Below are positions 21,276-53,844 of a stretch of 64,000 nucleotides of DNA, one piece after another. The notes under the pieces are model-generated. The model saw only the letters and a list, made by a program, of their open reading frames with translations. It did not search any database and was not told the origin of the DNA. Source of the stretch: a virus; the IMG/VR virus record IMGVR_UViG_3300049811_000692, positions 41,429 to 105,428 of that record; one strand, given 5' to 3'. A program made the translations under genes and the position numbers. The stretch's first letter is position 1. Every line of letters begins with the position of its first letter.

Positions 21276-21396
21276 AGATTCCTTCCTCTTCTCTCCTCTC
21301 CTCTCCTCTCCGTCGGTGATCGATCACCGACATGTCGGTGATCCAACACCGACCGCTCGGTGTTCGCTCGGTGTTCTGTCGGTGCTCAAACACCGA
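21276..21396. other. Phased iteron cluster with pyrimidine tract, candidate replication origin
   Basis: A C/T-only run of about 35 bases is followed by five direct TCGGTG(A/T/C)TC units starting at 21313, 21335, 21357, 21368 and 21379 (steps of 22, 22, 11, 11) and three inverted copies (21322, 21345, 21389). The step is one or two helical turns, so a protein would bind one face. A T6 run follows. Such arrays are typical of iteron origins, but a multi-site operator is also possible. Confidence 0.6.
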
Positions 21397-21435
21397 TTTT
21401 TTCGCATGATTTGGAGAACAAGCCATTGAAACGAC

Positions 21436-21642: not shown

Positions 21643-21727
21643 GGGGAGTTGCCTTTCTGTCTTTCGCCCCGGCCTGGGGCGCAGCGGGCCGGCGCACCTG
21701 CGCCGGCAAGCCGACCGACCCAGCGGG

Positions 21728-22748: not shown

Positions 22749-22841
22749 GGTGGTGTCCTTCGTCCCGATCAGGGGACGCGACTGGCTGCCCCAGGACGGG
22801 GCGGCGGGGCCCGGGCGCTGAAGCGCCACGGGCAGGGAGGA
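22749..22841 (-). repeat. Start-associated element, copy 2
   Basis: Hairpin 1 GTCCC-gatca-GGGGAC; hairpin 2 with one base change (CTGCCCC); hairpin 3 GCCCGGGCGC type. Confidence 0.8.
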
Positions 22842-23375: not shown

Positions 23376-23465
23376 CGGGGTGGTCCTTCGTCCCGATCAG
23401 GGGACGCGACTGGCCGCCTCACGCTGAGGCGGCGGGGGCCAGGGCGCGCGGGGCGCCGCTGGCAA
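23376..23465 (-). repeat. Start-associated element, copy 3
   Basis: Hairpin 1 GTCCC-gatca-GGGGAC. Hairpin 2 is CCGCCTC/GAGGCGG, a compensated change from CCCC/GGGG. Confidence 0.85.
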
Positions 23466-23885: not shown

Positions 23886-23976
23886 GGTGGTCTCCTTCGC
23901 CCCGATCAGGGGGCGCGACTGGCCGCCTCACGCTGAGGCGGCGGGGCCAGAGCGTAGCGGCGCTCTGGCGAGGTGA
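23886..23976 (-). repeat. Start-associated element, copy 4
   Basis: Hairpin 1 GCCCC-gatca-GGGGGC; hairpin 2 CCGCCTC/GAGGCGG; hairpin 3 CCAGAGCG/CGCTCTGG, a compensated variant. Confidence 0.85.
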
Positions 23977-24234: not shown

Positions 24235-24326
24235 AGGGCTTGGTCCTTCGCCCCGATCAGGGGGCGCGACTGGCCGCCTCACGCTGAGGCGGCGGGGAGC
24301 AGGGCGCAACGGCGCCCCGCTCGGTG
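24235..24326 (-). repeat. Start-associated element, copy 5
   Basis: Hairpin 1 GCCCC-gatca-GGGGGC; hairpin 2 CCGCCTC/GAGGCGG; hairpin 3 GGGCGC/GCGCCC. Confidence 0.85.
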
Positions 24327-24713: not shown

Positions 24714-24805
24714 CGGGGTAGTCCTTCGCCCCGATCAGGGGGCGCGACTGGCCGCCCCGGGACAGGGCGGCGGGGCCAGGGCGCACGGGGCGCCGCTGGC
24801 GGGCA
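24714..24805 (-). repeat. Start-associated element, copy 6
   Basis: Hairpin 1 GCCCC-gatca-GGGGGC; hairpin 2 CCGCCC/GGGCGG; hairpin 3 CCAGGGCGC/GGCGCCGCTGG. Confidence 0.85.
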
Positions 24806-25452: not shown

Positions 25453-25545
25453 GGTGGTGTCCTTCGTCCCGATCAGGGGACGCGACTGGCCGCCCCAAGA
25501 CGGGGCGGCGGGTGCCCGGGCGCCGAAGCGCCGCGGGCGGGAGGG
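25453..25545 (-). repeat. Start-associated element, copy 7
   Basis: Hairpin 1 GTCCC-gatca-GGGGAC; hairpin 2 CCGCCCC/GGGGCGG; hairpin 3 CCCGGGCGC/GCGCCGCGGG. Confidence 0.85.
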
Positions 25546-26109: not shown

Positions 26110-26208
26110 GGTAGGGGTGGTCCTTCGTCCCCAGGCAGGGGAACGCGACTGGCCGCCTCACGTTGAGGCGGCGGGTGCGGAGGGCGCCGAAGCGCCCCCC
26201 GCGGTGCG
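26110..26208 (-). repeat. Start-associated element, copy 8
   Basis: Hairpin 1 GTCCCC-aggca-GGGGAAC with one unpaired base; hairpin 2 CCGCCTC/GAGGCGG; hairpin 3 GGGCGC/GCGCCC. Confidence 0.8.
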
Positions 26209-27405: not shown

Positions 27406-27508
27406 AGTGCCGTGGTCCTTCTTCGGCCCCAGGCAGGGGGCCGCGACTGGCCAGAGCAATACGCTCCGGCGGAAGTGCCCGCGGCACAGAGGCGCCGCGG
27501 GCGGGCGA
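27406..27508 (-). repeat. Start-associated element, copy 9
   Basis: Hairpin 1 GGCCCC-aggca-GGGGGCC. Hairpin 2 is fully different in sequence, CCAGAGC-aata-GCTCCGG with one mismatch, yet keeps the fold. Confidence 0.8.
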
Positions 27509-28021
27509 TCAGCCGGGCGGCAGATCGATGGGGTGGCCAGCTCCCTTCAGCAGGTCGGCGATGCGCTGGGCGACCAGCGCCGGATTGTCCAAGTCGCCGA
27601 GGTAGGTGCCGGGGTTGAACAGTCGGGCCGTGTCGTAGCGGCCGAGCTCAAAAAACCGCCCGCACGCCTCGAAGTCCTGTTCCGGATCCACGCCGAACGG
27701 GCGTTCCGCGGAGCGTGTTTCCGGCTCGGCATACAGGACCGAGATGTCGGCGGCCCGGTTGAAGCCGAGCTTGACCAGCTCGCGCGCAGACCGGATCGGG
27801 GTCCAGTTGAAGTTCTCCCAGAGCGCCATGCAGAACCCCTGGCTCTGGAACCAGGGGTCGAGGGAGGCGTGTCCTGCCGCGCAGGCGGCGGTGCCGCATT
27901 CGTTGGCCTTGCCCCACGACCCCATGTTGAGGTCCAGGAAGAAGGGAGGGGCGGGAGCCTTCTCGGCCTCCGCGAGCGTCAGCATGATCGCCCGGAGGCG
28001 CTGGAGTGCTTCCACGTTCAT
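27509..28021 (-). CDS. Array 1 paralogue A (CGTxACAxG family)
   Basis: A 170-residue protein, first of three tandem paralogues. Shared features are an N-terminal helix (MNVEALQRLRAIMLTLAEAE), CGTAACAAGHASLDPWF (about 42-58), a middle with FFELG and a C-terminal helix ending near DLLKG. This copy has diverged most. The Cys pair in CGTxAC could bind metal. Function unknown. Confidence 0.7.
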   Translation of the reverse strand: MNVEALQRLRAIMLTLAEAEKAPAPPFFLDLNMGSWGKANECGTAACAAGHASLDPWFQSQGFCMALWENFNWTPIRSARELVKLGFNRAADISVLYAEPETRSAERPFGVDPEQDFEACGRFFELGRYDTARLFNPGTYLGDLDNPALVAQRIADLLKGAGHPIDLPPG

Positions 28022-28114
28022 GGTGGGTGTCCTTCGTCCCCAGGCAGGGGGACGCGACTGGCCGCCTCGATGGGAGGCGACGGGGCCCGGGCGCCGAGGC
28101 GCCGCGGGCGAGGG
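28022..28114 (-). repeat. Start-associated element, copy 10
   Basis: Hairpin 1 GTCCCC-aggca-GGGGGAC; hairpin 2 CCGCCTC/GAGGCG; hairpin 3 CCCGGGCGC/GCGCCGCGGG. Confidence 0.85.
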
Positions 28115-28648
28115 TCAGGTGAGGCCCGCCTCCCGGCGAGCCTCGGCCTCCAGCTTGAGCCGGGCGAGCAGCTTCTCGACGCGGTTCAGGACGGCCTGCG
28201 GCGAGCCGAGTTCCGAGCGCTCGTATTCGTCGGGATCGAAGAGGTAGCGCGCGCGGGGCTCGGGGATACCGAAGAAGCTTGCCGCCGCGTGGTAGTTGAG
28301 GGGCCACTCGTAGGGATTGATCTCGGCGAGCTCCTCTTCGGGCGGGCCGCTCGGCGTTTTGTGGATCGGCATGACGGTGCGCCCCATGCAGGTGACTTTC
28401 GCGAGCTCTTCCACAGTGAAAGCCGCCGTGCCGCGCGCGGTGACCAGAAAGAGCCCGCGCTCCTGGAACCAGGGGTCCAGGCAGGCGAGGCCGACCGCGC
28501 AGGCGGTGGTACCGCATTCAGAGCGGCCATGAGCCCAGAGATCCATCCGGAGGTGGATGATGGGTGGCGAGAGCGCGTCCTGCGCCTCAATCTGCTGCGC
28601 AAGCAGGTCGCAGAGCCGTTCGAGCGCCTCGATGTTGGGTGTAGTCAT
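28115..28648 (-). CDS. Array 1 paralogue B (CGTxACAxG family)
   Basis: A 177-residue protein with N-terminus MTTPNIEALERLCDLLAQQI and C-terminus LEAEARREAGLT nearly identical to the next gene upstream. The core CGTTACAVGLACLDPWFQERG (about 45-65) is shared by all three. The middle (about 75-130) differs more, so the ends are under stronger constraint or were homogenised by recombination. Confidence 0.75.
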   Translation of the reverse strand: MTTPNIEALERLCDLLAQQIEAQDALSPPIIHLRMDLWAHGRSECGTTACAVGLACLDPWFQERGLFLVTARGTAAFTVEELAKVTCMGRTVMPIHKTPSGPPEEELAEINPYEWPLNYHAAASFFGIPEPRARYLFDPDEYERSELGSPQAVLNRVEKLLARLKLEAEARREAGLT

Positions 28649-28740
28649 CGTGGTGTCCTTCGTCCCCAGGCAGGGGGACGCGACTGGCCGCCTCGATGTG
28701 AGGCGGCGGGGCCCGGGCGCCGAGGCGCCGCGGGCGAGGG
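28649..28740 (-). repeat. Start-associated element, copy 11
   Basis: Hairpin 1 GTCCCC-aggca-GGGGGAC; hairpin 2 CCGCCTC/GAGGCGG; hairpin 3 as in copy 10. Confidence 0.85.
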
Positions 28741-29277: not shown

Positions 29278-29345
29278 CGTGGGTGGTCCTTCGTCTCCAG
29301 GCAGGGGGACGCGACTGGCCGCCTCGATTCGAGGCGGCGGGAACA
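29278..29345 (-). repeat. Start-associated element, copy 12
   Basis: Hairpin 1 GTCTCC-aggca-GGGGGAC with a G-U pair in RNA; hairpin 2 CCGCCTC/GAGGCGG. No hairpin 3, as no gene lies upstream. Confidence 0.8.
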
Positions 29346-34849: not shown

Positions 34850-34942
34850 GGTGGTGTCCTACGGCCCCAGGCTGGGGGCCGCGACTGGCCGCCCCACAGC
34901 GGGGCGGCGGGGCCAGGACGCAACGGCGTCCTGGCAAGGTGG
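34850..34942 (-). repeat. Start-associated element, copy 13
   Basis: Hairpin 1 GGCCCC-aggct-GGGGGCC; hairpin 2 CCGCCCC/GGGGCGG; hairpin 3 GCCAGGACGC/GCGTCCTGGC, a fully compensated stem. Confidence 0.85.
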
Positions 34943-35377: not shown

Positions 35378-35468
35378 GGGGCGTGGTCCTTCGCCCCGAA
35401 CAGGGGGCGCGACTGGCCGCCCCACAGCGGGGCGGCGGGGCCAGGGCGCGCGAGGCGCCGCTGGCGGG
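35378..35468 (-). repeat. Start-associated element, copy 14
   Basis: Hairpin 1 GCCCC-gaaca-GGGGGC; hairpin 2 CCGCCCC/GGGGCGG; hairpin 3 CCAGGGCGC/GGCGCCGCTGG. Confidence 0.85.
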
Positions 35469-36116: not shown

Positions 36117-36198
36117 GGTGGTGTCCTTCGCCCCGAACAGGGGGCGCGACTGGCCGCACCAGGGCGGTGCGGCGGGCCGCCCTACTGGGGCGGGGTCG
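36117..36198 (-). repeat. Start-associated element, copy 15
   Basis: Hairpin 1 GCCCC-gaaca-GGGGGC. Hairpin 2 is CCGCACC/GGTGCGG, a compensated change. Confidence 0.85.
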
Positions 36199-36486: not shown

Positions 36487-36586
36487 CGGGGTGGTCCTTT
36501 CGGCCCATGCAGGGGCCGCGACTGGCCGCCCCAGGGCGGGGCGGCAAGAGCCGAGCTTACAGGCGCTCGGCGGGCCTTGATCCAGA
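36487..36586 (-). repeat. Start-associated element, copy 16
   Basis: Hairpin 1 GGCCC-atgca-GGGGCC; hairpin 2 CCGCCCC/GGGGCGG; hairpin 3 is replaced by GCCGAGC/GCTCGGC-like pairing. Confidence 0.75.
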
Positions 36587-36973: not shown

Positions 36974-37072
36974 GGTGGGGTGTCCTTCGGCCCCCAGTCA
37001 GGGGGGCCGCGACTGGCCGCCCCACAGCGGGGCGGCGGGGCCAGGGCGCGCGGGGCGCCGCTGGCGGGATGG
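36974..37072 (-). repeat. Start-associated element, copy 17
   Basis: Hairpin 1 extended by one pair, GGCCCCC-agtca-GGGGGGCC; hairpin 2 CCGCCCC/GGGGCGG; hairpin 3 CCAGGGCGC type. Confidence 0.85.
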
Positions 37073-37567: not shown

Positions 37568-37662
37568 GGTGCTGTCCTTCGGCCCCAGGCAGGGGGCCGC
37601 GACTGGCCGCCCCACAGCGGGGCGGCGGGCCAAGGCGCGCGGGGCGCGCCTTGGGTGATGTG
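37568..37662 (-). repeat. Start-associated element, copy 18
   Basis: Hairpin 1 GGCCCC-aggca-GGGGGCC; hairpin 2 CCGCCCC/GGGGCGG. Confidence 0.85.
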
Positions 37663-38364: not shown

Positions 38365-38455
38365 GGTGCTGTCCTTCGGCCCCAGGCAGGGGGCCTCAAC
38401 TGGCCGCACCAGGTGGTGCGGCGGGCCGCCCCCTATGATGGAGGCGGTGGTCGCA
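38365..38455 (-). repeat. Start-associated element, copy 19
   Basis: Hairpin 1 GGCCCC-aggca-GGGGGCC; spacer CTCAACTGG instead of GCGACTGG; hairpin 2 CCGCACC/GGTGCGG, compensated. Confidence 0.8.
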
Positions 38456-38674: not shown

Positions 38675-38765
38675 AGGTTGTGGTCCTTCGCCCCATGCAG
38701 GGGGCGCGACTGGCCGCCCCAGGGTGGGGCGGCGGGGCCAGGGCGCGCGAGGCGCCGCTGGCGGG
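38675..38765 (-). repeat. Start-associated element, copy 20
   Basis: Hairpin 1 GCCCC-atgca-GGGGGC; hairpin 2 CCGCCCC/GGGGCGG; hairpin 3 CCAGGGCGC type. Confidence 0.85.
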
Positions 38766-39041: not shown

Positions 39042-39133
39042 GGGGTTGTGGTCCTTCGCCCCATGCAGGGGGCGCGACTGGCCGCCCCAGGACAGGGCGG
39101 CGGGGCCAGGGCGCGCGAAGCGCCGCTGGCGAG
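39042..39133 (-). repeat. Start-associated element, copy 21
   Basis: Hairpin 1 GCCCC-atgca-GGGGGC; hairpin 2 CCGCCC/GGGCGG; hairpin 3 CCAGGGCGC type. Confidence 0.85.
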
Positions 39134-39537: not shown

Positions 39538-39633
39538 GGTGGGTGTCCTTCGTCCCCAGGCAGGGGGACGCGACTGGCCGCCCCAGGGCGGGGCGGCGGG
39601 GCCAGGGCGCGCGAGGCGCCGCTGGCGGGCGAG
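39538..39633 (-). repeat. Start-associated element, copy 22
   Basis: Hairpin 1 GTCCCC-aggca-GGGGGAC; hairpin 2 CCGCCCC/GGGGCGG; hairpin 3 CCAGGGCGC type. Confidence 0.85.
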
Positions 39634-40284: not shown

Positions 40285-40360
40285 GGGGGTGTCTCCTTCG
40301 TCCCCAGGCAGGGGGACGCGACTGGCCGCCCCAGGGCGGGGCGGCGGGAGGCGGATATGC
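40285..40360 (-). repeat. Start-associated element, copy 23
   Basis: Hairpin 1 GTCCCC-aggca-GGGGGAC; hairpin 2 CCGCCCC/GGGGCGG. A true terminator takes the place of hairpin 3. Confidence 0.8.
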
Positions 40361-40570: not shown

Positions 40571-40768
40571 GGTGGGGTTGTCCTTCGGCCCAGTCAGGGG
40601 CCTCGACTGACCACCCCACAGCGGGGCGGCTGGTCGGCCCCCCGCTCGACCGCCGCCCGAGGGAGCGGCAGGAGCAGGGGGCCCTTTCGCGCCTCGACCG
40701 GAGGCGCACGACGGGCCGCCTCGGTGGGGCGGCAAGGTGCCCAGCTGCCGGCTGGGCTCGGGGTCGGT
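40571..40768 (-). repeat. Start-associated element, copy 24 (diverged, long)
   Basis: Hairpin 1 GGCCC-agtca-GGGGCC; hairpin 2 drifted to GACCACCCC/GGGG..GGTC; extra sequence of about 100 bases with a CCGCCT-rich duplicate. Confidence 0.65.
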
Positions 40769-40966: not shown

Positions 40967-41172
40967 GGGGAATGTCCTTCGGCCCAGACAGGGGCCTCAG
41001 CTGGCCGCCCCAGGGTGGGGTGGCTGGGCCCTCGCCGTCGGAGGGGTCCGGCGGCGAGGGGGAGGGTAGTAGGGGTAGTGGTTCGATCCCCGGCCGGGGG
41101 ATCTCGACGGGCCACCCCAGCATGGGGTGGCGCCAGACCGCCCGGGCACGAGGCCCAGGCGATTGGAAAGGG
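40967..41172 (-). repeat. Start-associated element, copy 25 (diverged, long)
   Basis: Hairpin 1 GGCCC-agaca-GGGGCC; hairpin 2 CCGCCCC/GGGGTGG with G-U pairs. A second CCACCCC/GGGGTGG hairpin lies near 41112. Confidence 0.65.
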
Positions 41173-41394: not shown

Positions 41395-41423
41395 TTATTA
41401 CGCCTAAATACGTGTCATGGCAA
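41395..41423 (-). promoter_or_regulatory. Promoter TTGCCA-17-TAATAA without operator
   Basis: Near-consensus on the - strand, before the membrane-protein trio. The 14-bp operator is absent, so these genes could be expressed in the lysogen. Confidence 0.7.
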
Positions 41424-42612: not shown

Positions 42613-42703
42613 GGCGGTGATCTCCTTCGTCCCCAAGCAGGGGGACGCGACTGGCCGCCCCAGGGCGGGGCGGCGGGTCCCTGGCCTTGCGGCCAGGGGG
42701 TGC
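42613..42703 (-). repeat. Start-associated element, copy 26
   Basis: Hairpin 1 GTCCCC-aagca-GGGGGAC; hairpin 2 CCGCCCC/GGGGCGG; hairpin 3 CCCTGGCC/GGCCAGGG, a compensated variant. Confidence 0.85.
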
Positions 42704-43179: not shown

Positions 43180-43272
43180 AGTGGTGTCCTTCGTCCCCGA
43201 GCAGGGGGACGCGACTGGCCGCCCCAGGACGGGGCGGCGGGTGCCCGGGCGCCAAAGCGCCGCGGGCGGGGG
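43180..43272 (-). repeat. Start-associated element, copy 27
   Basis: Hairpin 1 GTCCCC-gagca-GGGGGAC; hairpin 2 CCGCCCC/GGGGCGG; hairpin 3 CCCGGGCGC/GCGCCGCGGG. Confidence 0.85.
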
Positions 43273-43911
43273 TCAGGAGGCGGGGGCCGCCAGTTGGGCG
43301 ACCGGCAGCTCTGCCGGCTCCTGGTAGAGCTTCCCGTCGTCGGGGTTCACGTACCAGTTGGCCGGCCCGAAGAGCCGGGCGCCCTTGGCGAGCATGTCCC
43401 CGATCTCCTGGGGCCAGTCCCCGTCCCAGAAGCCGCAGCCGTGGCCTTCGCGGGTGTACCAGAAGTCACGGCCGGCGTGCTCCCAGACCGTGTCGGTGGG
43501 GGACCCGGGCTTGTGGGTGTGCTCGGCGCTGGCGATGCGCGCGGCGTAGTGGGTCAGGAAAACCTCGCAGTCGGCCGTGATGGCCTTGTGCAAGGTCGAG
43601 CTGATCATCTCCCAGGTCCAAGTCTCGTCTTCGGGGCAGGCCGAGAAGAGCGCCGCGGCCACGTAGTCGCCTCGGAACTCCTGAAGCTTCGGGTGCGGGT
43701 TGAGCGTGGACGGCGCGCCGTGCGGCTTGAGGTCGCCCATGCGGAAGTCGGGGTCGCGGCGGACCTCGTACTGGCCGGCGGTCCACAGGCGGCGCCACTT
43801 GTCGGCCCAGGCCATGGCTTCCTCCTTCGTCAGGTAGGGGCCGCTGGCCAGCATGCCGGCGGTGTTGTTCCAGACGCACCAGGCCGGCTCGAGGTCGGGG
43901 GTGTTGGTCAT
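43273..43911 (-). CDS. Two-domain array 2 protein (WCVWN + FWxTRxGHGxGFWD)
   Basis: A 212-residue protein. The N-terminal ~45 residues (AWCVWNNTAGMLASGPYLTK) are shared with the 76-residue protein of array 1. The C-terminal domain (about 125-205) has DFWYTREGHGCGFWDGDWP and YVNPDDGKLYQ, a combination found in many phage hypotheticals with FWxTRNGHGAGFWD. It thus looks like a fusion of two array modules. Function unknown. Confidence 0.7.
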   Translation of the reverse strand: MTNTPDLEPAWCVWNNTAGMLASGPYLTKEEAMAWADKWRRLWTAGQYEVRRDPDFRMGDLKPHGAPSTLNPHPKLQEFRGDYVAAALFSACPEDETWTWEMISSTLHKAITADCEVFLTHYAARIASAEHTHKPGSPTDTVWEHAGRDFWYTREGHGCGFWDGDWPQEIGDMLAKGARLFGPANWYVNPDDGKLYQEPAELPVAQLAAPAS

Positions 43912-44002
43912 GGTGGTGTCCTTCGCTCCGATCAGGGAGCGCGACTGGCCGCCTCACGTCGAGGCGGCGGGGCCCGGGCGCCAAAGCGCCGCGGGCGGGC
44001 CT
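43912..44002 (-). repeat. Start-associated element, copy 28
   Basis: Hairpin 1 is GCTCC-gatca-GGGAGC, an inner pair changed on both sides compared with GCCCC/GGGGGC. This is the clearest compensated change in hairpin 1. Hairpin 2 CCGCCTC/GAGGCGG. Confidence 0.9.
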
Positions 44003-44662: not shown

Positions 44663-44756
44663 CGTGGATGTCCTTCGTCCCCGAGCAGGGGGACGCGACT
44701 GGCCGCCTCACGTCGAGGCGGCGGGTGCCCGGGCGCCGAAGCGCCGCGGGCGGGGG
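44663..44756 (-). repeat. Start-associated element, copy 29
   Basis: Hairpin 1 GTCCCC-gagca-GGGGGAC; hairpin 2 CCGCCTC/GAGGCGG; hairpin 3 CCCGGGCGC type. Confidence 0.85.
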
Positions 44757-45701: not shown

Positions 45702-45793
45702 GGTGGTGTCCTTCGTCCCCGAGCAGGGGGACGCGACTGGCCGCCCCAAGACGGAGCGGCGGGGCCAGGGCGCCGGGGCGCCGCTGGCGGGGG
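45702..45793 (-). repeat. Start-associated element, copy 30
   Basis: Hairpin 1 GTCCCC-gagca-GGGGGAC; hairpin 2 with one mismatch (CCGCCCC/GGAGCGG); hairpin 3 CCAGGGCGC type. Confidence 0.8.
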
Positions 45794-46371: not shown

Positions 46372-46465
46372 GGTGGGTGTCCTTCGTCCCCAGGCAGGGG
46401 GACGCGACTGGCCGCCTCGAGGTGAGGCGGCGGGTGCCCGGGCGCCAAAGCGCCGCGGGCGGGGG
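46372..46465 (-). repeat. Start-associated element, copy 31
   Basis: Hairpin 1 GTCCCC-aggca-GGGGGAC; hairpin 2 CCGCCTC/GAGGCGG; hairpin 3 CCCGGGCGC type. Confidence 0.85.
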
Positions 46466-46882: not shown

Positions 46883-46944
46883 GGTGTTGTCCTTCGTCCC
46901 CGAGCAGGGGGACGCGACTGGCCGCCCCACGACGGGGCGGCGGG
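46883..46944 (-). repeat. Start-associated element, copy 32
   Basis: Hairpin 1 GTCCCC-gagca-GGGGGAC; hairpin 2 CCGCCCC/GGGGCGG. No hairpin 3, as in the first copy of array 1. Confidence 0.85.
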
Positions 46945-51357: not shown

Positions 51358-52323
51358 ATGCGCCCACCCTGGGCCATGCGGCTCAGGCTTCATCTCCCCC
51401 TCCCGCTCCACGTCGTCGCCGGCCTCATCTTGCTGGGCGCGCTGCTGGTCGCCTGCCTCGAGCAGCCCAAGCGCGCCAGCGCCCCGACAGGGGCTCTCGA
51501 CCAGGCGGAAGCCATCCGCTTCCTCGTCCAGCACGAGTGCGCCAACCACGTCCTCACCCCGCTCCAAGAGAACTGCCTGGCGCCTCGCCCCGCGCGGCCC
51601 GGCACGCTCACCTACCGCCGCTTCGACTGGTCGGGCGTCCAGGCGCAGGACGCGCTCCTCCTCGGCCCCGACCGCGTCGTACAGACCTTCGACTTCGGCG
51701 ACGCCCCCCGCGCCTTCGCCCGCTTCGACCAGGGCCGCGGCGACGGGGGCGATCTCATCTCCATCACCGCCGCCGGCGCCTTCATCACCCTGACCGAGGA
51801 CGGGGGCGCGGGCCGCCAGCACTGGCAGGAGCCGGGCTGTCCCCCCTCCCGCGGCTGGCTGCTCTTCGCCTACCCCCTGACGCCCAGCGCCCCAGGCTCC
51901 CGCGGCGGCTCGCTCGGCCGCAGCTCGGCCGAGGGCGCTTGCACCACCAGCTTCTCCCCCGTCACCACGGTCTGGGCGCGCACCACCTTCACCTTCCCCT
52001 GGCGCGAGGGGGACGGCCCCATGCACATGACGGCCCGCCCCGCGATCGTCTCCGAGCACTACGCAGGCCCGGCCGAGCGCCCTCATCACATGGAGCGCTT
52101 CGTCTTCGTCGAGCACCTTGGGAAAATCGCCTGGGAGAGATGGGAGAACGTCCTGTCCTCGCGTCGCGATCAGGCCGAGCTCATGCAGTCCATCTTCGCC
52201 ATGAACGCCGACGGCCGCTGCCCCATCGAGGCGCGGCCGCCGGAAGGCTCATGGGTTCGAGCCGATTGTCGGGTCTGGACCAAGGTCGCCCCTGGTCCAG
52301 CCCAACCGATGGGGTGGCCTTAG
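51358..52323 (+). CDS. Predicted lipoprotein
   Basis: A 321-residue exported protein. The N-terminal signal (LHVVAGLILLGALLVAC) ends in a lipobox with Cys33, followed by LEQPK. The lipoprotein at the right edge has the same ACLEQ stretch. The mature part contains four further Cys and a beta-rich core (FITLTEDGGAG, TTVWARTTFTFPWREG). An ATG six codons in would also give a complete signal. No family recognised. It converges on the TROVE gene with 4 bases of overlap. Confidence 0.65.
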   Translation: MRPPWAMRLRLHLPLPLHVVAGLILLGALLVACLEQPKRASAPTGALDQAEAIRFLVQHECANHVLTPLQENCLAPRPARPGTLTYRRFDWSGVQAQDALLLGPDRVVQTFDFGDAPRAFARFDQGRGDGGDLISITAAGAFITLTEDGGAGRQHWQEPGCPPSRGWLLFAYPLTPSAPGSRGGSLGRSSAEGACTTSFSPVTTVWARTTFTFPWREGDGPMHMTARPAIVSEHYAGPAERPHHMERFVFVEHLGKIAWERWENVLSSRRDQAELMQSIFAMNADGRCPIEARPPEGSWVRADCRVWTKVAPGPAQPMGWP

Positions 52324-53798
52324 TCCTCCTCGCCGTCCCGCATCTTGATCGAGGGGATGATGCGATCGCCGCCCAGCGTCTCGATCAGGTAGCGCACGAC
52401 GCCACCCGACCAGCCGTTGATCCGCACCACCGCCCCCTCCGTCGTGAGCCCCCGCATCGTCGGCGCGAGGTTCACGATCGCCACCGGCAGCCGCGGCCGC
52501 CCCGTCAGCGCGAACTGGCTCTGCTCGTCCGTCAGGACGACCACGCGATCGACCTCCGACTGGCCGAGCGCCCAGTACACCGCCTTGGGCACGTCCGTGC
52601 CGCCCGACGGCAGAGACGCCAGCGCCCGCGCCAGCTCGACCCCGCGTGCCTCGGGGTCCGGCAGCTGCTCGACCGCCGTGTGGAAGCCGACCAGCAGGCT
52701 CCGCTCGCACACCTCGGCCAGCACCGAGGCCAGCACCGCCGCCACCCGCGCCCGTGACGTCGTCCCGTGATCGCTGACCGGGGCGACCATCGACCCCGAC
52801 ACGTCCACCAGGATCGCCGTGCGACCGGGCAGCTTCGGCAGCTCCCCGCACGAGCGCAGCGCCAGCCGCTCCAGGGCCGGCACCGCCAGCGGAGGCGCAT
52901 ACTCGGCCGCCAGGTAGACCTGGTGCGGCCACAGCAGCGCCCCGCTCGCGCGCTCCACCGCCGCCACGATCAGATCCGGGTCCACCCCCACCGCGGTCAT
53001 GTTGCGCAGGTTGCGGATCAGGGCCACCTCGCCGAGCGTCTCTCCCGCCAGCATGTCCTCCCACACCACGCGCTTGTCCGCGCCCGGCTCCGAGAGCCGC
53101 GACTCCCAGGTGTCGGGCGCCTTCACCGTGTCGTCGGCCAGCGCCTTGAAGGTCGCCGCGTAGATCGGGTCCACCTCCGGCTCCACCGGGCGCACCGCCC
53201 GCCCCTCGGCCTTCGCGAGATCCTCCTCCTCGGCCACCCGCAGCCCGTGCTTCCACAGCGCCACCGGCTTCGGGTGCGTCAGGAACAGCAGATCCCGCAG
53301 CCGCACCTTCACGTTGCGCAGCGTCCCGTACTTCTCGAGCTGGTAGGGGGTCCACTCCTGGAACTTCTGCCTGATCGCGCGCTTCCACGCCGCCGGCAGG
53401 GGCTTCTTCCCGTCCCGCCAGTAGAGCGCCACCAGATCGAGCGCGTCCTTCGGCGTCCGCAGCACCCGCAGCAGCGACGCCTCCACCTTCCCCGGCGCCC
53501 GCAGCCTCGCCAGCTCGTCGAAGACCACCAGCGGCGCATGCCGCAGCCCCGTCGAGGTCCGCGCCAGGAACGCCTCACGCACCGCGAGCTGGGGATGAAC
53601 GGCCTTCACCAGCTCCCGCAGCCGCGCCTCGATCTCCGCACCCTCCAGGTAGAAGCTCTTCTCGCCGAGCAGGCACGTCTGCATCAGGCGCTTCAGCTCT
53701 ACCTCCGGCGCGAAGCCCTGCTTGGCCCCCGCCTCATGCACGACAGCCTCGCTCACACGGCGCCGCGCCGCGGCGTCCAGCACATTCAACCGACCCAT
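52320..53798 (-). CDS. TROVE/Ro60-like RNA-binding protein
   Basis: A 492-residue homologue of Ro60 (bacterial Rsr). The N-terminal two thirds are the helical-repeat TROVE ring: FYLEGAEIEARLRELV, DLVALYWRDGKK, WTPYQLEKYGTLR and LRDLLFLTHPKP are typical. A von Willebrand A domain follows with the MIDAS start ILVDVSGSM at about 330 and VVVLTDEQSQ later. Ro60 proteins hold Y RNAs and act in RNA quality control. The ATG with AGAGGTGA upstream is preferred over the GTG three codons before. The 630 bases upstream hold two tandem RNA-like repeats with operators. Confidence 0.88.
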   Translation of the reverse strand: MGRLNVLDAAARRRVSEAVVHEAGAKQGFAPEVELKRLMQTCLLGEKSFYLEGAEIEARLRELVKAVHPQLAVREAFLARTSTGLRHAPLVVFDELARLRAPGKVEASLLRVLRTPKDALDLVALYWRDGKKPLPAAWKRAIRQKFQEWTPYQLEKYGTLRNVKVRLRDLLFLTHPKPVALWKHGLRVAEEEDLAKAEGRAVRPVEPEVDPIYAATFKALADDTVKAPDTWESRLSEPGADKRVVWEDMLAGETLGEVALIRNLRNMTAVGVDPDLIVAAVERASGALLWPHQVYLAAEYAPPLAVPALERLALRSCGELPKLPGRTAILVDVSGSMVAPVSDHGTTSRARVAAVLASVLAEVCERSLLVGFHTAVEQLPDPEARGVELARALASLPSGGTDVPKAVYWALGQSEVDRVVVLTDEQSQFALTGRPRLPVAIVNLAPTMRGLTTEGAVVRINGWSGGVVRYLIETLGGDRIIPSIKMRDGEED

Positions 53799-53844
53799 GG
53801 GGTTCACCTCTTCGTCGGGGGAGAAGGGAAAAACCCCTGAGCCG

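Follow-up and report, generated by a model that had tools for sequence, protein, structure and literature searches.

The window analyzed here is a stretch of 64,000 nucleotides, positions 41429-105428 of the 105,428-base record IMGVR_UViG_3300049811_000692, and this record is referred to as G000 among the four compared genomes (G000, G001, G002, and G003), all of which are database contigs. The GC content of the window is 70%, and its genes include those for portal, head morphogenesis, large terminase, integrase, DnaB, ERF, YqaJ, and SSB proteins, a set that therefore indicates a temperate-type tailed phage with a record of approximately 105 kb. The segment 43912-44002 is intergenic and lies between two minus-strand ORFs; therefore, the mRNA sense of the element is that of the minus strand. 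The phage also encodes a TROVE/Ro60-type protein of 495 aa with a vWA domain (PF05731, PF25045) at 52320-53807 (-). ACACCGA-type repeats with a GAGAG run are located at approximately 21290-21420 (-), upstream of the YqaJ-like gene. Separately, a 56-nt repeat with CAACGGC...GCCGTTG arms occurs in three diverged copies at L133:3559-3821.

Structure of the Element

Read as mRNA, the element follows the order stop codon, hairpin H3, hairpin H2 (8 bp), the 7-nt linker CAGUCGC, hairpin H1 (5-7 bp, CUGNNN loop), GAAGGA, and start codon. In the first-pass annotation of this segment, the stems were written from the plus strand and the linker from the minus strand; all parts are given here in the mRNA sense. 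The focal copy consists of the following features.

43996-43972 (-), H3, GCCCGcGGCGC-UUUG-GCGCC-CGGGC, a 10-bp hairpin with a bulged C that starts 6 nt past the upstream stop codon (44005-44003)
43968-43948 (-), H2, GCCGCCUC-GACGU-GAGGCGGC, 8-bp stem and 5-nt loop
43947-43941 (-), linker CAGUCGC
43940-43925 (-), H1, GCUCC-CUGAUC-GGAGC
43924-43919 (-), Shine-Dalgarno (SD) sequence GAAGGA, directly 3′ of H1
43911-43909 (-), start codon AUG
43273-43911 (-), ORF led by the focal copy, 212 aa, without a Pfam match

The focal copy is one of at least 31 in G000, of which 30 were parsed by rule and the 31st (29292) was recognized later. In the parsed copies, H2 has 8 bp and a loop of mostly 5 nt, and H1 has 5-7 bp and, with one exception, a 6-nt CUGNNN loop. 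The linker reads CAGUCGC in 27 of the 30 parsed copies, or 28 of 31 once copy 29292 is counted, and CAGUCGA, CAGUUGA, or CAGCUGA in the others. A GAAGGA-type SD immediately follows H1 in each copy. The distance from the upstream stop codon to H2 is 25-41 nt in most copies, and this interval holds H3, which in most copies directly follows the stop codon and ends 3-4 nt from H2. An H3 hairpin is found in 29 of the 30 parsed copies, differing in sequence and with z values of approximately -2 to -6 in most; it is absent at copy 46895, which opens its operon.

H3 was considered as an intrinsic terminator and rejected, since C-rich sequence without a U tract follows it in nearly all copies. U-tailed intrinsic terminators in the window are present at 42068-42043, 41470-41437, and 40382-40365 (-), by which the cluster is split into several transcription units; those in the 40-47.1 kb region are located away from H3 sites, except at copy 40299, where the terminator at 40382-40365 takes the place of H3. 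A promoter-like TTGCCA-18-AATAAT at 41423 is the sole promoter listed by the promoter tool in the stretch scanned, and the promoter boxes of copy 46895 and of G003 are by-eye readings.

Copies in the Window

All copies match one strand only. Those other than the focal copy are as follows.

46890-46941 (-), copy 46895, operon-first, without H3; promoter-like TTGAAT-17-TACAGT just upstream (by eye)
46380-46431 (-), copy 46385
45709-45760 (-), copy 45714
44671-44722 (-), copy 44676
43187-43238 (-), copy 43192
42623-42674 (-), copy 42628
40975-41024 (-), copy 40980, linker CAGCUGA; one A-C mismatch in H2
40581-40630 (-), copy 40586, linker CAGUCGA
40294-40345 (-), copy 40299, U-tailed terminator instead of H3
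39546-39597 (-), copy 39551
39052-39101 (-), copy 39057
38684-38733 (-), copy 38689
38372-38422 (-), copy 38377, H2 GCCGCACC/GGUGCGGC; linker CAGUUGA
37575-37626 (-), copy 37580
36983-37036 (-), copy 36988, H1 of 7 bp
36495-36545 (-), copy 36500
36124-36173 (-), copy 36129
35387-35436 (-), copy 35392
34857-34908 (-), copy 34862, H3 GCCAGGACGC/GCGUCCUGGC
29287-29338 (-), copy 29292, one C-A mismatch in H1
28656-28707 (-), copy 28661
28030-28081 (-), copy 28035
27416-27470 (-), copy 27424, H2 replaced by GCCGGAGC/GCUCUGGC; leads a phrog_1362/DUF932-like gene
26121-26172 (-), copy 26126
25460-25509 (-), copy 25465
24722-24771 (-), copy 24727
24244-24293 (-), copy 24249
23893-23942 (-), copy 23898
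23384-23433 (-), copy 23389
22756-22805 (-), copy 22761, one C-A mismatch in H2
41085-41131 (-), degenerate copy, linker CCGUCGA; no start codon after it
40683-40733 (-), degenerate copy, linker CCGUCGU
21660-21707 (-), degenerate copy, linker CCGCUGC

Only one paralogous pair occurs among the 30 led genes, and spread of the element by gene duplication was rejected on this ground. Tandem paralogs at 27509-28021 and 28115-28648 (-) share 31% identity, and each has a separate copy of the element in front of it.

Evidence for Base Pairing

All stem variants listed in the first-pass annotation were recovered, among them GCCGGAGC/GCUCUGGC of copy 27424. The pattern for the H1 region yields 22 matches in the real sequence and 0 in shuffles, and RNAalifold on a plain MAFFT alignment recovers H2 and H1 unaided, with double changes in five of 13 pairs. 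Covariation was evaluated with our own R-scape-like script, rather than R-scape itself, using a G statistic with APC, a FastTree tree, and a null in which substitutions are moved among columns within each branch so that the tree is kept. Among 1,378 column pairs, the three that rank highest all belong to stems, with E values over all pairs of 0.0025 (H1 pair 2, which is U-A, C-G, and G-C in 14, 8, and 8 copies), 0.010 (H2 pair 7), and 2.3; when the structure set is considered by itself, three of 15 pairs pass 0.05. With the relative G003 and the degenerate copies added (41 sequences), four of 16 structure pairs are significant. The two arms of H1 pair fully in 40 of 41 cases when taken from the same copy and in 15% when taken from different copies, a length mismatch being counted as unpaired; the corresponding values for H2 are 38 of 41 and 48%. 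H3 sequences are too different to be aligned, and H3 is supported by differing hairpins that recur at the same place. Accordingly, of the earlier claim that pairing is proven in all three stems, formal covariation support extends to H1 and H2, in which covariation exceeds that expected from the phylogeny of the copies, whereas H3 has the recurrence of hairpins.

G-U pairs outnumber A-C mismatches by 24:3 in the mRNA sense, a comparison whose p value is inexact owing to the shared ancestry of the cells, and the mRNA strand is therefore the strand under selection. The earlier suggestion of selection on RNA structure is supported by these counts, by covariation beyond the tree-keeping null, and by the pairing of own over swapped arms, and further by the fixed orientation and position of the copies before start codons and by the same topology with other letters in G003. 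These observations bear on a purely DNA-level feature without an RNA role, such as operators, promoters, or homology linkers for gene shuffling. Similarity is higher between neighboring copies than between distant ones (p = 0.0002), so local exchange or duplication does occur, and the ESAS repeats of cluster K phages have been interpreted as DNA sites (PMC3203893); however, the letters of the stems change while pairing stays, the excess of G-U lies on the mRNA strand, and the copies keep one orientation and a fixed distance to the start codon. The DNA-level explanation is already disfavored, and we regard it as extremely improbable.

Related Elements in Other Phages

G001 (IMGVR_UViG_3300016482_000089) was reached via its phrog_1362/DUF932-like protein (55% identity), G002 (IMGVR_UViG_3300035683_000002) was found with the pattern of the G001 element, and G003 (IMGVR_UViG_2882837327_000005) was reached through a terminase alignment (61%); the terminases of G001 and G002 are approximately 60% identical to that of the window. 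The terminase frame L148 of G001 (G001:68273-70801 +, 845 aa) has its homologous parts approximately 330 aa apart, as with an intein-like insertion. The record name of G003 (L239/L240) suggests an isolate genome, and a cultured host of the phage group may hence exist.

The layout in G001 matches that of the window (stop, variable hairpin, conserved structure, SD, and start), although the element itself is a different one: GCCCCC encloses GGGC-nnn-GCCC, followed by GUCGAnnnA, GGGGGC, and an AGGA-type SD. This nested version has 15 exact matches each in G001 and G002 (about 15 copies), on a single strand. G003 carries eight copies with the topology of the window and different letters, in one form with the linker CCGCCGA and GCGCCCC/GGGGCGC-type stems and in another with the linker GCGCYCA and stems GCCGGCGG/UCGYCGGC. 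A structure-only scan detects 27 copies in the G000 cluster and eight in G003, against approximately 20 hits scattered over 1.7 Mb of loci from other phages, and a tandem-hairpin scan of 1.75 Mb of other phages with DUF932-like or terminase relatives revealed no other array. H1-region patterns of the window have no match in the virus collection, from which its own record was possibly left out. In prokaryote genomes, the matches listed are mostly single ones in Streptomyces with a few others, and those inspected are not leader-like; a distant DNA search of phages and plasmids gave weak partial matches only.

The DUF932-like orthologs in G000, G001, and G003 are each preceded by the element version of their own genome. 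Together with the likeness of neighboring copies, this implies that copies are homogenized within a genome, either by exchange between copies or by tracking of a common partner. In a rival explanation that we consider unlikely, an RNA-binding protein of the phage or host would read the linker and flanking hairpins and switch the translation of all led genes together, as a post-transcriptional regulon resembling that of T4 RegA. Among the unpaired parts in G000, conservation is highest in the linker and the CUGNNN loop, and one or two forms occur within a phage with another form at orthologous genes elsewhere, as would be seen with a changing specificity; RegA itself represses approximately 30 mRNAs at their start sites (PMC3014915). 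However, BLAST, Pfam, and PHROG comparisons revealed no RNA-binding protein common to the phages, although a host factor may act instead, the linker is CCGCCGA or GCGCYCA in G003, and RegA sites are without structure. The early proteins common to the phages are DnaB, a VRR-NUC nuclease, an HTH repressor, and a 120-aa unknown protein. The TROVE/Ro60-type protein was rejected as a trans factor because, among three phages checked, it is present in G000 only and absent from two relatives. In its widest form, equally unlikely in our estimation, this would be a translational regulon across the phage, in which a dedicated factor would read the leader at 31 or more genes, with each lineage evolving its own leader-factor dialect; these dialects would be the tandem hairpins of G000 and G003 and the nested hairpin with GUCGA of G001 and G002. 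The earlier proposal of the conserved linker as a protein contact is thus only possible, with CAGUCGC kept in nearly all parsed copies on one side, and the other linkers and the lack of a common RNA-binding protein among those searched on the other.

The promoter-proximal copies 46895 of G000 and 77991 of G003 retain H2-H1, with no same-strand cistron directly before them. These copies bear on a module for mRNA processing or stability, in which a cut between H3 and H2 would yield monocistronic mRNAs capped by H3 at the 3′ end and by H2-H1 at the 5′ end. The position of H3 between the stop codon and H2 would suit this module, as would the absence of a U tract from H3, which makes it no usual terminator, while U-tailed terminators occur elsewhere in the region. 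Nothing requires cutting at the promoter-proximal copies, however, the stems are rather short for cleavage by RNase III, and the linker lacks the AU-rich character favored by RNase E; the processing module is therefore doubtful.

Proposed Function as a Cistron Leader

The covarying H2-linker-H1 structure ends at the GAAGGA-type SD in front of ORFs that are mutually unrelated but for two; an ORF lies downstream in 30 of 30 parsed copies, starting 7-13 nt past the six-base GAAGGA window. This position, the orientation, and the SD adjacency point to translation. They fit poorly with an RNA that acts on RNA polymerase as an antiterminator, in the manner of HK022 put RNA: two adjacent hairpins, a conserved unpaired stretch, and promoters near some copies speak for it, although the 31 copies are fixed at start codons rather than being few and placed after promoters, and the SD adjacency is left unexplained. 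We consider antitermination very unlikely.

The favored interpretation, to which we assign an even chance, treats the element as a cistron leader at the RNA level within a large phage operon region, one that would expose the ribosome-binding site (RBS) and insulate it from the preceding cistron. H3 and H2-H1 would jointly isolate each RBS of a polycistronic mRNA of approximately 70% GC from the cistron before it, and the leader hairpins would hold the RBS single-stranded, such that every gene might be initiated at a similar rate, from its own start, and uncoupled from its neighbor. Where cluster genes lack the element, their starts often overlap the stop codon before them, and coupling could serve these genes; a stop-start overlap marks the beginning of four coding-looking genes that have no copy (46045-45794, 42874-42704, 39391-39134, and 25036-24806). 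The sequence may drift while the stems pair, and this freedom would be the reason why each phage has its own version. Further points in favor of the leader are the paired arms and the strand bias, the H2-H1 structure kept at the promoter-proximal copies 46895 and 77991, the genome-specific versions at the DUF932-like orthologs, and the single paralogous pair among the led genes. Factor binding at the linker may add control, although the data do not require it.

Predicted openness of the SD is 0.545 with the native leader, compared with 0.478 with a shuffled leader (p = 7e-4) and 0.341 for 24 other genes of G000 (p = 4e-4). This predicted gain in accessibility is modest, which counts against the leader interpretation, as do the weak pairing often predicted between the SD and GUC of the linker and the capacity of stable hairpins near an SD to slow initiation. 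Furthermore, plain insulation does not explain the retention of the CUGNNN loop and linker within G000. Linker-SD pairing (GUC with GAC) as a constituent of the structure was rejected, since it is predicted in many copies but is not retained when the SD or linker changes.

Comparison With Known Systems

The window has no match in Rfam 15 at gathering score, and the open-access literature searched yielded no closer relatives than the SAS/ESAS and cluster O repeats of mycobacteriophages, the start-associated sequences of cluster K being the nearest known kind. HK022 put antiterminator RNA likewise has two hairpins and a short spacer, although its copies are few, near promoters, and not tied to an SD. 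The T4 RegA regulon affects approximately 30 mRNAs at the translation start region, whereas RegA sites are A/U-rich, unstructured, and without a strong consensus (PMC3014915). The 17-bp repeat of cluster O mycobacteriophages is an inverted repeat with approximately 34 copies in a phage genome; by contrast with the present element, its 7-bp arms are invariant, its orientation has little meaning, and some copies lie inside genes, as for a DNA-type site (PMC4351075).

The start-associated sequences (SAS) and ESAS of cluster K mycobacteriophages, for which the authors rejected RNA pairing and favored DNA-binding sites (PMC3203893), are similar in having many copies per genome, mostly in one orientation, directly before the start codons of unrelated genes, with a purine-rich SD-like core, an upstream inverted repeat in some SAS copies, and a repeat consensus that varies by subcluster. 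They differ in that SAS is one near-fixed 13-nt sequence, whereas the element here has an H3-H2-linker-H1-SD layout with supported pairing. The elements described here lack the SAS core GGGATAGGAGCCC (13 nt, up to two deviations) before their start codons, their cores ending in GAAGGAC, GAAAGGA, or GAAGAGGA, and, in contrast to ESAS, in which changes in the inverted repeat do not support RNA pairing, the changes in the window do.

Repeated phage start-site sequences have so far been taken as short motifs or DNA sites, and the hairpin idea was set aside in cluster K. Here, covariation in one genome supports the hairpin idea, and relatives show it again in other letters, so that arm-swap mutants allow a direct test of what repeated start-site elements are for. 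Multi-gene constructs for GC-rich bacteria may also draw on the leaders as natural insulators of diverse sequence. The element belongs with the repeated start-site elements of phages and differs from them in its supported pairing and varying arms.
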